Assembly (NCBI GenBank): GCA_017428765.1 | Contig: JAFRQF010000012.1 | Span: 1 to 64,000 of the forward strand | Origin: Erysipelotrichaceae bacterium | GTDB taxonomy: Bacteria > Bacillota_I > Bacilli_A > Erysipelotrichales > Erysipelotrichaceae | DNA: 64,000 nucleotides | Reading direction: 5' to 3' | Part shown: piece after piece, positions 32,579-37,986 of the stretch | Position numbering within the stretch: position 1 is the stretch's first letter | How the letters are laid out: each line of letters starts with the position of its first letter | Made by a program: the position numbers and the translations under genes | Notes under the pieces: model-generated | Database searches by the model: none | What the model saw: only the letters and a program-made list of their open reading frames with translations | Told to the model about the DNA's origin: nothing

Positions 32579-32607
32579 TTGCAATTTCAAGGTACTTGCT
32601 TTATCCT
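32579..32607 (+). promoter_or_regulatory. Promoter of the antiterminator gene
   Basis: TTGCAA (32579-32584), 17 bases, TATCCT (32602-32607). Confidence 0.6.
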
Positions 32608-32614
32608 AAAATTA

Positions 32615-32709
32615 AAGATACATACAGCCTCATACAACTCTTCAGGCTCATCCTTTCAAGACATCATGCATCATTTACTGTTTAAGGAAACGCAGGAAGA
32701 GTTTTTTTT
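32615..32709 (+). promoter_or_regulatory. RAT-like element overlapping a terminator, upstream of the BglG-type gene
   Basis: The RNA from about 32615 to 32656 can fold as an antiterminator hairpin: AAGAT-ACATACAGCCT pairs with AGGCT-CATCCTT, matching the layout of ribonucleic-antiterminator targets (lower stem, two asymmetric bulges, upper stem). AACTCTTC (32636-32643), in its loop and arm, alternatively pairs with GAAGAGTT (32696-32703), followed by T7: a terminator. The same AACTCTTC/GAAGAGTT pair is used at the second site near 33.7 kb. Confidence 0.65.
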
Positions 32710-32729
32710 AAAGGGAAGTCCTAAGAACG

Positions 32730-33551
32730 ATGAAAGTCATCCGAAACATCAACAACAATATTGCGCACTGCATCGATTCCAAAGGCCGCGAAGTGGTCGT
32801 TTTCGGCAAGGGCATCGGCTTCTACAAAGCCAACGAGGACATCCCTTTAAGCAAGATCAACCGTACCTTCTACAACATCAAAGATTCCGATTACGGCATC
32901 ATACGCAATATCCCGACCAACATCATCAATACGGCCATCTACATCATCGACTATGTCTCCGATAAGCTTGGCGTCACCTATCCTTCTTCCAAGGCCATCT
33001 CTTTGGCCGACCACCTGCAGTTTGCGATCGAGAGAAAAGACAAGAACATCTATCTTGAACAGCCGCTGCTGCAGGACATGTACCAGCTCTATCCGGATGA
33101 GATGCATCTGGCGGAAGAATCCTTGTCCATCATCCAGGAGATGACCGGCAGCAAACTGCCCCGCAAGGAAGCGGGAACGCTGTGTCTTCACTTCATCGCC
33201 GACAGGCTCAACGAAAAGAAGAACGATTCCCTTGATACGGCTATGATCTGCGAAGAATGCACGAAGATCATCGAAGAAGACTTCAATGTCACCGTCGACA
33301 GAGACTCCTTCAACTACAGCCGTTTCGTCACCCATCTGGACTATCTCATACGCCGTCTCGTACAGGACCAGCAGATCGAATCGGAAAACACGGCCATCTT
33401 CAACGAACTGAAGACTTCCTACCCGGGATCATATGAATGTGCCTGCAGGCTTTCTTCTTTCCTTGAAGAAAAGCTGGACAAGCAGATCTATGACGAAGAG
33501 ATCCTGTATCTGGTCATCCACATCAACCGTCTGATCTCAAGGATCGATTAA
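32730..33551 (+). CDS. BglG/LicT-family transcription antiterminator
   Basis: 273 residues in the standard order: CAT RNA-binding domain about 1-57 ('NINNNIAHCIDSKGREVVVFGKGIGF'), PRD1 about 65-170 with histidines in SLADHLQFAIERK and DEMHLAEESL, PRD2 about 171-273 with FVTHLDYLIRRL and LVIHINRLISR. The PRD histidines are phosphorylated by HPr and the cognate EII, so the protein binds its RAT RNA only when substrate is present. A RAT/terminator pair before its own gene and another before the mupG-PTS-GH1 operon show autoregulation and control of that operon. Confidence 0.92.
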   Translation: MKVIRNINNNIAHCIDSKGREVVVFGKGIGFYKANEDIPLSKINRTFYNIKDSDYGIIRNIPTNIINTAIYIIDYVSDKLGVTYPSSKAISLADHLQFAIERKDKNIYLEQPLLQDMYQLYPDEMHLAEESLSIIQEMTGSKLPRKEAGTLCLHFIADRLNEKKNDSLDTAMICEECTKIIEEDFNVTVDRDSFNYSRFVTHLDYLIRRLVQDQQIESENTAIFNELKTSYPGSYECACRLSSFLEEKLDKQIYDEEILYLVIHINRLISRID

Positions 33552-34939: not shown

Positions 34940-35004
34940 GGTTTTATTACCTCGCCAGGGTATAAACATATACGATCATAATTCAAAAAAAGAAAGGAGT
35001 AATT

Positions 35005-36486
35005 ATGGCAAAAACTGAAAAGAATTTCGCTCAGATCGCAGCCAGGATCATTGAACTGGTCGGCGGCAAAGACAACATCGCTCATGCCGGCCACTGTATG
35101 ACGAGACTGCGCATCACACCGAAAGACACCAGCCTTGTGAACATCGACGAGATCAAGAAGATCGGCGTCATCGGTGCACAGATGGTCGGTGACCAGGTAC
35201 AGGTCATCATCGGCAACGATATCGATGAAGTCTACGATGCATTCGTCAAAGCAAGCGGCGTCGAAAGAGAAGCTGTGATCGACGAGAACCTCGATCCTGA
35301 ACTGACCAAGAAGAAAGGCATCAAAGAGATCCTGGGATCCATCTTCCCGGCGATCGTCTCCTGTGTGTTCCCGATCCTTCCTGCATTACTGGCTTGCGGT
35401 CTATTGCAGGCGATCATGATGCTGCTGATCAACTTACATGTCGTGGCTGCCGACTCACCGACAGTCGCAACATTCACCTGGGTCTATAATGTAGCTTATT
35501 ATTTCTTACCGGTATTAGTCGCCTATGCCGCTTCCAGAAGATTCAACGTCAAAGCCGCAATGGCCATACTGATGGGCCTGATCCTGGTCTATCCGGACTT
35601 CGTCGAACTGTGCAAACAGGGCGTCGGCGCTACCATTCCGAATCCGGGCGGACCTCCTACGATCATTCCGGGTACCGGCAATGCCGGCTATCTCTTCGGC
35701 ATTCCGATCCATCCGGCGACCTATTCCAATACGATCATTCCGGCGATCCTCATCGTCTTCGTGATGAGCTATGTCGAGAAATTCCTCAATAAGGTCATTC
35801 CTAAGATCGTAAGATTCATCTTCGTACCGCTGCTGGAACTTGTGATCATGCTGCCGCTGGCACTATTGGTCTTAGCCCCGATCGGCGCGATACTCTCCGA
35901 AGCCTTTGCCGGCTTGCTGATCGGATTGTTCAATTCGCCGTTTGGCAAGATACTCATCCCGATCTTCTGTGCGATCTATCCGTACATCGTCATCACCGGC
36001 TTGCACTTCAACCTGATGGCTGTCGCCATGGCGATCGGCGGAAGATACGGAAAGAACCCGATCACGCATCCGGCAGGATTCCTGTTCCAGTACACGCAGG
36101 CTGCCGCATGTCTGGCTGTCGCACTTAAGGCAAAGAACGCGGAACGCAAGTCTCTGGCATTCTCCTGCGCATTCTCGGATGCGATCCCGGGCATCTCCGA
36201 ACCGGGTATGTACGGTGTCACCTTCAAATACAAGACACCTTTATATGGTGCCATGATCGGTTCCGCCGTCGGCGGTATCGTATGTACCGTACTGAATGTC
36301 GGTTCCTATGCCGGCGGACCGCCGAACATCTTCACTTTCCCGGTCTTCATCAATCCGCAGACCCACTCGATGGCTGACTTACGAGGCATGATCATCGCCA
36401 TTGCCGTCGGTGTTGTCGTGACATTCGTCGCTACGATGATGCTCTACAAGGACGAAGAAGCCGACAAGATCGACGCACAGGGCTAA
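35005..36486 (+). CDS. PTS transporter subunit EIIBC, beta-glucoside type
   Basis: 493 residues. EIIB domain with phosphocysteine C31 (AGHCMTRLRI) at about 8-90, then EIIC of about ten membrane helices (about 105-480), including 'ITGLHFNLMAVAMAIGG' and 'DAIPGISEPGMYGVTFKYKTPLYGAMIG'. No EIIA domain. It imports and phosphorylates a sugar taken on by the MupG-like protein and the following GH1 enzyme; identity unknown. RBS AAAGGAG; 3 bases precede the GH1 start. Like the other EIIBC of this window it needs a shared EIIA. Confidence 0.9.
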   Translation: MAKTEKNFAQIAARIIELVGGKDNIAHAGHCMTRLRITPKDTSLVNIDEIKKIGVIGAQMVGDQVQVIIGNDIDEVYDAFVKASGVEREAVIDENLDPELTKKKGIKEILGSIFPAIVSCVFPILPALLACGLLQAIMMLLINLHVVAADSPTVATFTWVYNVAYYFLPVLVAYAASRRFNVKAAMAILMGLILVYPDFVELCKQGVGATIPNPGGPPTIIPGTGNAGYLFGIPIHPATYSNTIIPAILIVFVMSYVEKFLNKVIPKIVRFIFVPLLELVIMLPLALLVLAPIGAILSEAFAGLLIGLFNSPFGKILIPIFCAIYPYIVITGLHFNLMAVAMAIGGRYGKNPITHPAGFLFQYTQAAACLAVALKAKNAERKSLAFSCAFSDAIPGISEPGMYGVTFKYKTPLYGAMIGSAVGGIVCTVLNVGSYAGGPPNIFTFPVFINPQTHSMADLRGMIIAIAVGVVVTFVATMMLYKDEEADKIDAQG

Positions 36487-36489
36487 ACG

Positions 36490-37986
36490 ATGTCCAGATT
36501 TCCCGAAAACTTCTTATGGGGCGGTGCCACCAGCGCCGCCCAGTATGAGGGAGGCAGATGTGAAGACGGCAAGGGTCTTTCCCACCTCGACTATGTCTAT
36601 TACCGCGGTGCGAAGATCCCCTGCAACTTCATGCTGAAAAAAGACTACGAAAAAGCCAAAGCTGAAGAATCAACCCTGAACTTCCCGAACCGCCGGGGCG
36701 TCGACTTCTTTCACCGCTACAAGGAAGACATCGCCCTGATGGCCGAGATGGGCTTCAAGGTGCTTCGCATGTCGATCTCCTGGACGAGGCTCTTCCCAAC
36801 GGGACTGGAAGAAACACCGGACCCCAACGGCGTAGAATTCTATCACAACGTATTTAAAGAACTGCACAGATACGGGATCGAACCGCTGGTCACGATGGTC
36901 CATTATGAGCTTCCGATCGTGTTCGTCGAAAAATATGACGGCTGGGCCTCTCCGGAAGTCATCCCGCACTGCGTCCGATATCTGAAATTCCTCATCGATG
37001 AATACAAAGATGAAGTAAAATACTGGCTGACCTTCAACGAGATCAATATGGTCACTGCCGTACCTTGGCTGGGCGGAGGCATCCTGCTGGACCGCTATGA
37101 TGACTTTGAGATCCCGAAAGGCTTCCGGCCGTTCGGCAATCTGCCGGAAGATATGGCAAAACGCTGGAACAACGCCTCGCATCAGGCATTGCACCACCAG
37201 TTCATTGCCTCGGCAATGCTGGTGAAGTATGCCCATGAGACAGCACCCCAGTGCAAGATCGGCAACATGTTCAATCTGCACCACCTGTATCCGGAGACGT
37301 CTTCCCCTGCCGACGCCTACAGGGCACATGAAGAAAGTGAATACAACATGTTCTTCTGTGACGTAATGGCAAGAGGCTTCTATCCGAAATGGATGCTGTC
37401 CTACTACAAGAAACACGGCATCGAGATCAAATGGTACAAAGACTACGAAAGGATATTATCGCAGGGAACGATCGATTTCATCTCCTTAAGCTACTATCTT
37501 TCTTCCGTGGTCACCGCCGATCCAAACAGACAGGAGCGCATCGGCAGCTTCATCCGCATGCTGAAGAACCCGCATCTTGAAGATTCCGAGTTCGGCTGGC
37601 AGATCGACCCGATCGCACTTCGCATCTCGCTCAACGATCTGCGTGACCGCTTCGGTCTTCCGATCTTCATCGCCGAAAACGGGCTCGGTGCTTTCGAAGA
37701 ACTGGGTGAAGACAAGACGGTGCATGATGATTACCGTATCGCGTACCTGCGCAAGCACATCGAAGCATTGTCCGATGCGATCGAAGACGGTGTCGATGTC
37801 TTCGGCTACACGATGTGGGGCTGCATCGACCTGGTCTCCTGTTCCCTGGTCTCCATGTCGAAACGCTACGGCTTCGTCTATGTCGATGCGGACGATGAAG
37901 GAAACGGTACCTACGACAGATACCGTAAGGATTCCTTCTACTGGTACAAAAAGGTCATCGCCACCAACGGCGAAGACCTCGAATAA
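36490..37986 (+). CDS. Glycoside hydrolase family 1, 6-phospho-beta-glucosidase
   Basis: 498 residues. Acid/base E184 in [10 protein letters not shown], nucleophile E396 in [11 protein letters not shown], and '[17 protein letters not shown]' with the S...K-R-Y phosphate signature. It should hydrolyse the phosphorylated disaccharide delivered by the EIIBC encoded 3 bases upstream. The second copy of this enzyme class in the window; the two paralogues are clearly related (shared [23 protein letters not shown] ending). Confidence 0.93.

Follow-up and report, generated by a model that had tools for sequence, protein, structure and literature searches.

Why a gene of the MupG type should share an operon with a beta-glucoside permease and a second glycosidase, behind an antiterminator of the LicT type, is the question raised by a locus in a 64,000-nucleotide stretch of an Erysipelotrichaceae bacterium genome (assembly GCA_017428765.1, contig JAFRQF010000012.1, positions 1 to 64,000; hereafter the window), whose host assembly comprises 2.4 Mb in 37 contigs. 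On the + strand, the order from position 32094 is a DUF2798-like protein (a weak match, below cut-off), a first leader, the antiterminator gene licT, a second leader, a gene of glycoside hydrolase family 170 (GH170; here mupG), a gene for enzyme IIBC of a phosphotransferase system (PTS), and a gene of glycoside hydrolase family 1 (GH1). The first-pass annotation had proposed that the antiterminator and a catabolite responsive element (cre) control MupG-like, PTS and GH1 genes; Pfam domains match all four genes, and comparative data support the control. The closest named relatives of the operon are in Solobacterium and Erysipelotrichaceae assemblies, which, where a source is stated, are mostly from the ruminant gut.

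The answer that fits best has a regulatory and a catabolic half. At the level of comparative sequence, the locus displays a conserved and covarying ribonucleic antiterminator (RAT) overlapping a terminator, linkage of that RAT to licT, a recurrent cre, the gene content and a GH170 in a separate clade. Control of the mupG-IIBC-GH1 operon by LicT-type antitermination and the cre is well supported by these comparisons, as a case of a known type with its own RAT dialect, and the new element appears to be the catabolic part, in which a GH170 of an uncharacterised branch is tied to a GH1. We judge it probable that the operon serves to take up and cleave 6-phospho-beta-glycosides and is run by an antitermination switch under PTS control.

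The RAT and terminator ahead of mupG

The leader between licT and mupG (leader 2) is, by its sequence, a clear RAT/terminator switch. It can form a two-stem hairpin, TTAAGG-TTTGTAA-CTCGAA-ACTC-TTCGAG-GCTTAT-CCTTGA, the 3' part of which doubles as the 5' arm of a terminator (fold 33670-33740, -29.8 kcal/mol, z -6.7). A covariance model, R2, built from 30 RATs of relatives with the window excluded, gives this hairpin 73 bits, and the second-best match within the window scores 15.4 bits. An Rfam scan of the window returned a glycine riboswitch as its sole match, with no curated RNA family for either leader.

Conservation was followed through a set of 28 orthologous loci (identity at least 71%). 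The RAT stands before mupG in 23 of these and before an abutting licT in three more (L108, L114 and L129), for a total of 26 of the 28; it was not found in the remaining two, L102 and L104, neither of which has licT on the fetched stretch. Every mupG leader with a RAT, 24 of 24 with the window included, folds a long hairpin ending at a T run (-26.7 to -38.7 kcal/mol), and the terminator arms vary in sequence from one leader to another (CTCTTCG/CGAAGAG, ATTCCGTTT/ACGGAAT, AACTCCG/CGGAGTT). Across 31 RATs, standard pairs fill 94.6% of pair cells, as against at most 68.0% when the partner is slid by one to three columns, and two-sided changes number 19, compared with 7.7 (standard deviation 2.3) in shuffles.

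Linkage of the antiterminator to its RNA target

The antiterminator has the features of the BglG/LicT class: a CAT_RBD domain and two PRDs, the four PRD histidines (at the ADH, CLHF, THL and IHI positions) retained in alignment to LicT structures, and a RAT overlapping a terminator upstream of an operon. With the NCBIfam LicT equivalog model it scores 228.9 bits, under the curated cut-off of 300.

Judged from their distribution, RAT and licT travel together. Four genomes (G223, G224, G225 and G228) keep the RAT before mupG and have licT (61-64% identical) located elsewhere, and the distant licT is itself preceded by a RAT in three of them, with a degenerate copy of 17.5 bits in the fourth, G224. 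Loci L102 and L104, from records titled Oscillospiraceae and Faecalibacterium, retain GH170, IIBC and GH1 together with an EIIA gene. A scan of 27 whole genomes with the RAT model gave 40 sites scoring 43 bits or higher, which by position belong to the operon (27), to licT (9) and to other genes (4). Loci with licT adjoining, with licT moved, and with licT and RAT both absent amount to a natural experiment on what keeps an antiterminator matched to its RNA target.

The five other antiterminators of the genome were considered as readers of the mupG RAT and rejected, the stretches around them scoring at most 14.4 bits with R2. Their loci (L002, L003, L004, L006, L007; L088, L089) carry RAT-like leaders with differing 3' halves (GGCATCACC, GGTCTGACC, GCAATACC and others), as if the RAT of each antiterminator were a dialect of its own. 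Cross-talk from these five seems unlikely, because their leaders carry different RAT-like sequences and the surrounding stretches score so low.

Promoter, cre and a proposed mechanism

A cre, TGACAGCGCTTACA, lies over the TTGACA at 33612, which bears out the earlier placement of such an element across the -35 of the operon. Taken alone the window cre is weak evidence, because 0.33 matches are expected by chance in the window and 28 of 100 shuffles hold at least one. Of 26 mupG leaders compared, counting that of the window, 18 have the exact consensus over TTGACA.

We infer the direction of PTS control, the substrate, and the division of labour between the two hydrolases. Transcription from the cre-overlapped promoter would halt near 33741 except when the RAT at 33659-33699 is bound, and thereby stabilised, by the LicT-type protein. 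IIBC, served by an EIIA made elsewhere, would import and phosphorylate the sugar; as the sugar flows, the antiterminator would, following the usual logic of the family, lose an inhibitory EIIB-dependent phosphate, and read-through into the operon would follow. When a better sugar is present, repression of the CcpA type, acting at the cre, would lower the operon, and GH1 and GH170 would split the phosphorylated sugars. Supply of EIIA in trans would be natural, because an EIIA gene follows licT in G228 and another closes the operon in G114; the window genome has two stand-alone EIIA genes.

The permease and the GH1 enzyme

Among 19 models the IIBC scores best with the beta-glucoside model TIGR01995 (388 bits, below a cut-off of 614.7 that is set for IIABC). 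The model for IIBC of N-acetylmuramic acid (MurNAc) gives 111 bits, also below its cut-off, and identity to Staphylococcus aureus MurP is 24.9%.

GH1 is present in all 22 orthologous contigs that extend past IIBC. In comparison with PDB entries it resembles solved 6-phospho-beta-glucosidases, and two GH1 subfamily models give 524.8 bits (cut-off 623) and 518.2 bits (cut-off 639), neither cut-off being reached. The catalytic glutamates E184 and E396, of the NE and ENG motifs, and K458 and Y460, of the phosphate loop, are invariant in 10 of 10 aligned GH1 sequences. A loop of about 24 extra residues after TFNEINM (residues ~203-226) sets the operon enzymes apart: all five operon GH1s in the alignment have it, and the five others lack it.

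GH170 and MupG

Both Pfam domains of the GH170 protein score above the gathering threshold, and it is 24.7% identical to the S. aureus MupG of locus L207, where murQ, IIBC and MurR are neighbours. A tree of 82 rows (81 and the window, after omission of 25 of 106 as six duplicates, two two-domain rows and 17 surplus orthologs) places it within a 39-row clade with SH-aLRT support of 99, in which some members are linked to GH1 or GH4 and the seven rows linked to MurQ or MurP are all missing; those seven have long branches and do not form one clade. The label 'none' marks rows whose fragments, unequal in length, show no same-strand marker gene within 2.5 kb. In 16 regions fetched around homologs of 40-51% identity, a GH1 gene occurs in nine and MurQ in none. 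The window protein keeps residues common to GH170 (for example D68, R96, D98, N146, Y148, E199 and R202), and its His186 aligns with an arginine shared by all 13 rows on the MurQ/MurP side, in an alignment that is gapped nearby. A muramidase role for this GH170 is thus possible, and on these comparisons disfavoured.

The first GH170 to be characterised was MupG, in a study that notes possible differences in substrate among paralogs (PMC6262408). ChbE of Lacticaseibacillus paracasei, another GH170, is required for growth on N,N'-diacetylchitobiose (PMC12791066). In Bacillus coagulans the DUF871 gene celX belongs to a cellobiose operon with which Escherichia coli took up and consumed cellobiose, and a new 6-phospho-beta-glucosidase is one possibility that its authors raised for celX (PMC6271610). 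GH170 members with non-muramyl substrates are therefore supported. The labels 'MupG family' and '6-phospho-N-acetylmuramidase' in this branch derive from one characterised enzyme, and we argue that the MupG label is misleading for a whole clade found in gut Erysipelotrichaceae, the substrate of which is best sought through the GH1 partners.

Two observations on GH170 genes may be recorded here. In small genomes (families f5 and f16) some have in-frame TGA codons, which would be expected where TGA codes for an amino acid. In the S. aureus plasmid record, a second, frame-broken stretch of mupG with a partial murQ faces the first (L207:2-1414, - strand), possibly an effect of assembly.

RAT copies ahead of envelope-type genes

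The four RAT sites assigned to other genes all precede genes of an envelope type. A full RAT and terminator stands before a VanY-like gene cluster in G114, G118 and G129; the VanY-like protein was identified by Pfam scan in G129 and by homology in the other two, and PrsW- and CorA-type proteins lie downstream of it in G129. VanY belongs to the D-alanyl-D-alanine carboxypeptidase family. In G225 a RAT and terminator precede an open frame of 926 residues with Lipase_3 and YhhN matches, with a PrsW-type protein further down. Near-full-length VanY homologs (61-100%) occur in nine of the 27 genomes, and a RAT at E up to 1 accompanies them in G114, G118 and G129 only. Recruitment of distant genes through RAT copies has a precedent in Enterococcus faecalis, where NagY acts on hylA and other genes in this way (PMC9981650, PMC12502629).

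It is conceivable, if on balance doubtful, that the GH170 has a distinct non-muramidase 6-phospho-glycosidase specificity and is the standing partner of the enlarged-loop GH1 on one unusual beta-linked disaccharide, and that gain of RATs has brought envelope genes (VanY, lipase-like) of sister species under the same antiterminator. If this were so, the RAT copies at VanY and the lipase-like gene would join the sensing of dietary sugar to the cell surface. The operon also informs the transfer of such a switch to new genes.

The substrate

The best reading of the comparisons is an operon for 6-phospho-beta-glycosides, under LicT control, with EIIA in trans and two hydrolases. Its most likely substrates would be beta-glucosides, or disaccharides with a beta linkage, from plants or the diet, and not the disaccharide of MurNAc and N-acetylglucosamine (MurNAc-GlcNAc). 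The first-pass annotation had left a muropeptide-derived and a beta-linked disaccharide side by side; the former loses ground to a separate GH170 clade, a MurQ missing from 14 of 27 operon-bearing genomes and an IIBC unlike MurP, and the latter is favoured.

Several points weigh against this interpretation. Both IIBC and GH1 fall under the NCBIfam cut-offs, so that sequence does not fix the identity of the sugar. The top CcpA candidate of the genome is full length and scores 262 bits against a curated cut-off of 442. Within the 31 RATs, neither the number of pairs with a two-sided change (4 versus 3.3) nor the number of pair types (11 versus 11.7) rises above shuffles. The four extra RAT sites precede envelope genes, three of them VanY, which might suggest a signal that comes from the wall. 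The window genome, having MurQ and NagA, could use MurNAc 6-phosphate, and the genomes compared are draft assemblies, in which absences of MurQ are partly uncertain.

These last points lead to muropeptide recycling, in which IIBC would import MurNAc-GlcNAc, the GH170 would be a true MupG, a MurQ encoded elsewhere would take the MurNAc 6-phosphate, and GH1 would be auxiliary. Membership of the MupG family, the adjoining MurQ and NagA of the window genome and the RAT before VanY in three relatives all speak for it. In the window genome MurQ and NagA adjoin an ABC-type transporter (named by the look of its sequence) and not a PTS. Among operon-bearing genomes MurQ is present in 13, and nine of the 14 that miss it are at least 90% complete; among same-genus genomes without the operon it is present in 7 of 12. 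MurQ and the operon are thus unlinked either way, and co-occurrence with MurQ, tried as a sign of a muropeptide pathway, gives it no support. Set beside the distance of the GH170 from S. aureus MupG and its separate clade, the lack of MurQ around the 40-51% homologs, the histidine at the MurQ/MurP-side arginine (gapped alignment nearby) and the preference of IIBC for the beta-glucoside over the MurNAc model, this makes muropeptide recycling unlikely.

Chitobiose-like uptake, with the GH170 acting like ChbE on a disaccharide of amino sugars, either GlcNAc-GlcNAc or a glycan that contains GlcNAc, would suit a genome with NagA, but GH1 enzymes of the operon's type act on 6-phospho-glucosides, and GH1 is always present here, beside a IIBC of the glucose/beta-glucoside class, which leaves it improbable. 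ChbE, although a GH170 needed for growth on N,N'-diacetylchitobiose, pairs with a cellobiose-class PTS and, in the accessible account, without GH1 (PMC12791066).

The licT leader

The preferred reading, of a LicT-controlled operon for 6-phospho-beta-glycosides, includes a single RAT, in leader 2, and the leader of licT itself (leader 1) differs. The claim of common terminator arms holds, both leaders having AACTCTTC/GAAGAGTT and then a T run; for the leader-1 terminator the fold energy is -18.6 kcal/mol (z -3.4). Of the two RAT targets claimed, the one in leader 2 stands, scored with a model free of the window, and the one in leader 1 is not supported: the top model score across 32540-32740 is 6.7 bits, whereas accepted sites reach 43-74. 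A stretch near 32577, GGTTTGCAATTT...TTTATCC, is RAT-like by eye and was set aside, the conserved core of the relatives being GTACTTGYTYTATYCTAAAA upstream of the terminator. The two closest relatives, L091 and L093, retain the arms, the T run and the GTACTTGYTYTATYCTAAAA stretch, which would resemble a promoter region more than a hairpin.

A RAT before its own gene is frequent, though not obligatory, for an antiterminator of the BglG/LicT class, and leader 1 lacks one. Among 19 untruncated licT leaders, window included, nine hold a full RAT and ten hold none, and leader 1 of the window is therefore read as an eroded RAT. Autoregulation seems ancestral and lost in the lineage of the window, where that of licT is probably lost or weak. 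That both leaders are active targets, leader 1 through a divergent RAT, would alter a detail of regulation and not the substrate; the identical arms, a 3' half, AGGCTCATCCTTT, that resembles AGGCTTATCCTT, and the full RATs of the nine other leaders favour it, but leader 1 has no RAT 5' half to set beside its low score, its sister loci L091 and L093 likewise have no leader-1 RAT, and we give it little likelihood.

Comparison with described systems

The LicT, BglG and SacY systems are nearest in their regulation, sharing CAT_RBD and two PRDs, a RAT over an intrinsic terminator with the 5' half GGTTTGTAAC, and PTS and GH1 neighbours. The classical RAT 3' half is GGCAAAACC-like, whereas here it is GGCTTATCC, with a lower stem of AAGG/CCTT; the GH170 is an addition, and in the lineage of the window the RAT of the antiterminator's own leader has decayed. 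NagY of E. faecalis likewise reaches distant genes by RAT copies (hylA and others in that species; in the relatives here, VanY and a lipase-like gene), but as described in the accessible text it is a GlcNAc system with a fused EII, a different RAT sequence ending GGCATGGAA, and no GH170 or GH1 (PMC9981650, PMC12502629).

The mupG-murQ-murP-murR cluster of S. aureus also has a GH170 close to a IIBC without IIA; besides the low identities (24.7% and 24.9%), the operon here differs in being without MurQ and MurR and in having GH1 and LicT (PMC6262408). The chb genes of L. paracasei, with ChbE, and the CELO2 operon of B. coagulans, with celX, combine a GH170/DUF871 gene with a disaccharide PTS in one operon and have no MurQ there, but their PTS is of the cellobiose class, and the accessible accounts give them other regulators and no GH1 (PMC12791066, PMC6271610). 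No description of a GH170-GH1 operon under LicT control was found in the accessible open-access literature.

Features and neighbouring genes

Table 1. Coordinates of the features discussed (window positions unless a locus is named)
Feature	Position	Strand	Remarks
Probable licT promoter core	32592..32611	+	conserved GTACTTGYTYTATYCTAAAA; kept in L091, L093; within the area where the first-pass annotation probably placed its 'RAT1'
Leader-1 terminator, RAT eroded	32636..32709	+	arms 32636-32643/32696-32703, then T run
LicT/BglG-type antiterminator, 273 aa	32730..33551	+	CAT_RBD and two PRDs; Pfam PF03123, PF00874
Putative mupG operon promoter	33612..33641	+	TTGACA-18-TAGACT; position conserved in orthologs; such sites in the region no commoner than chance
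cre	33613..33626	+	TGACAGCGCTTACA; overlaps -35; perfect match, unique in window
RAT	33659..33699	+	lower stem TTAAGG/CCTTGA, upper stem CTCGAA/TTCGAG; 73 bits, E 1.9e-15; covariation
Intrinsic terminator, exclusive with RAT	33675..33740	+	arms AACTCTTC/GAAGAGTT at 33677-33684/33731-33738, T run after
GH170/MupG-family (DUF871) protein, 387 aa	33776..34939	+	MupG_N PF19200 and MupG_C PF05913, 226.3 and 90.1 bits
PTS EIIBC, beta-glucoside/sucrose type, without EIIA	35005..36486	+	PF00367, PF02378
GH1, 6-phospho-beta-glucosidase type	36490..37986	+	extra loop after TFNEINM; PF00232, 390 bits
RAT before VanY clusters	L173:327-372, L174:1400-1445, L175:6655-6700 (-)		
RAT before lipase-like frame	L172:7020-7068	-	

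Two features elsewhere in the window may be added. The glycine riboswitch aptamer (Rfam RF00504, 64.6 bits) lies at 31280-31357 on the - strand, and downstream of it are putative glycine-cleavage genes, named by the look of their sequence (30072-31157 and 29674-30054, - strand). At 39570-40463, also on the - strand, is a lipoprotein-like frame of low complexity with repeats such as 'DGQMPEM'.

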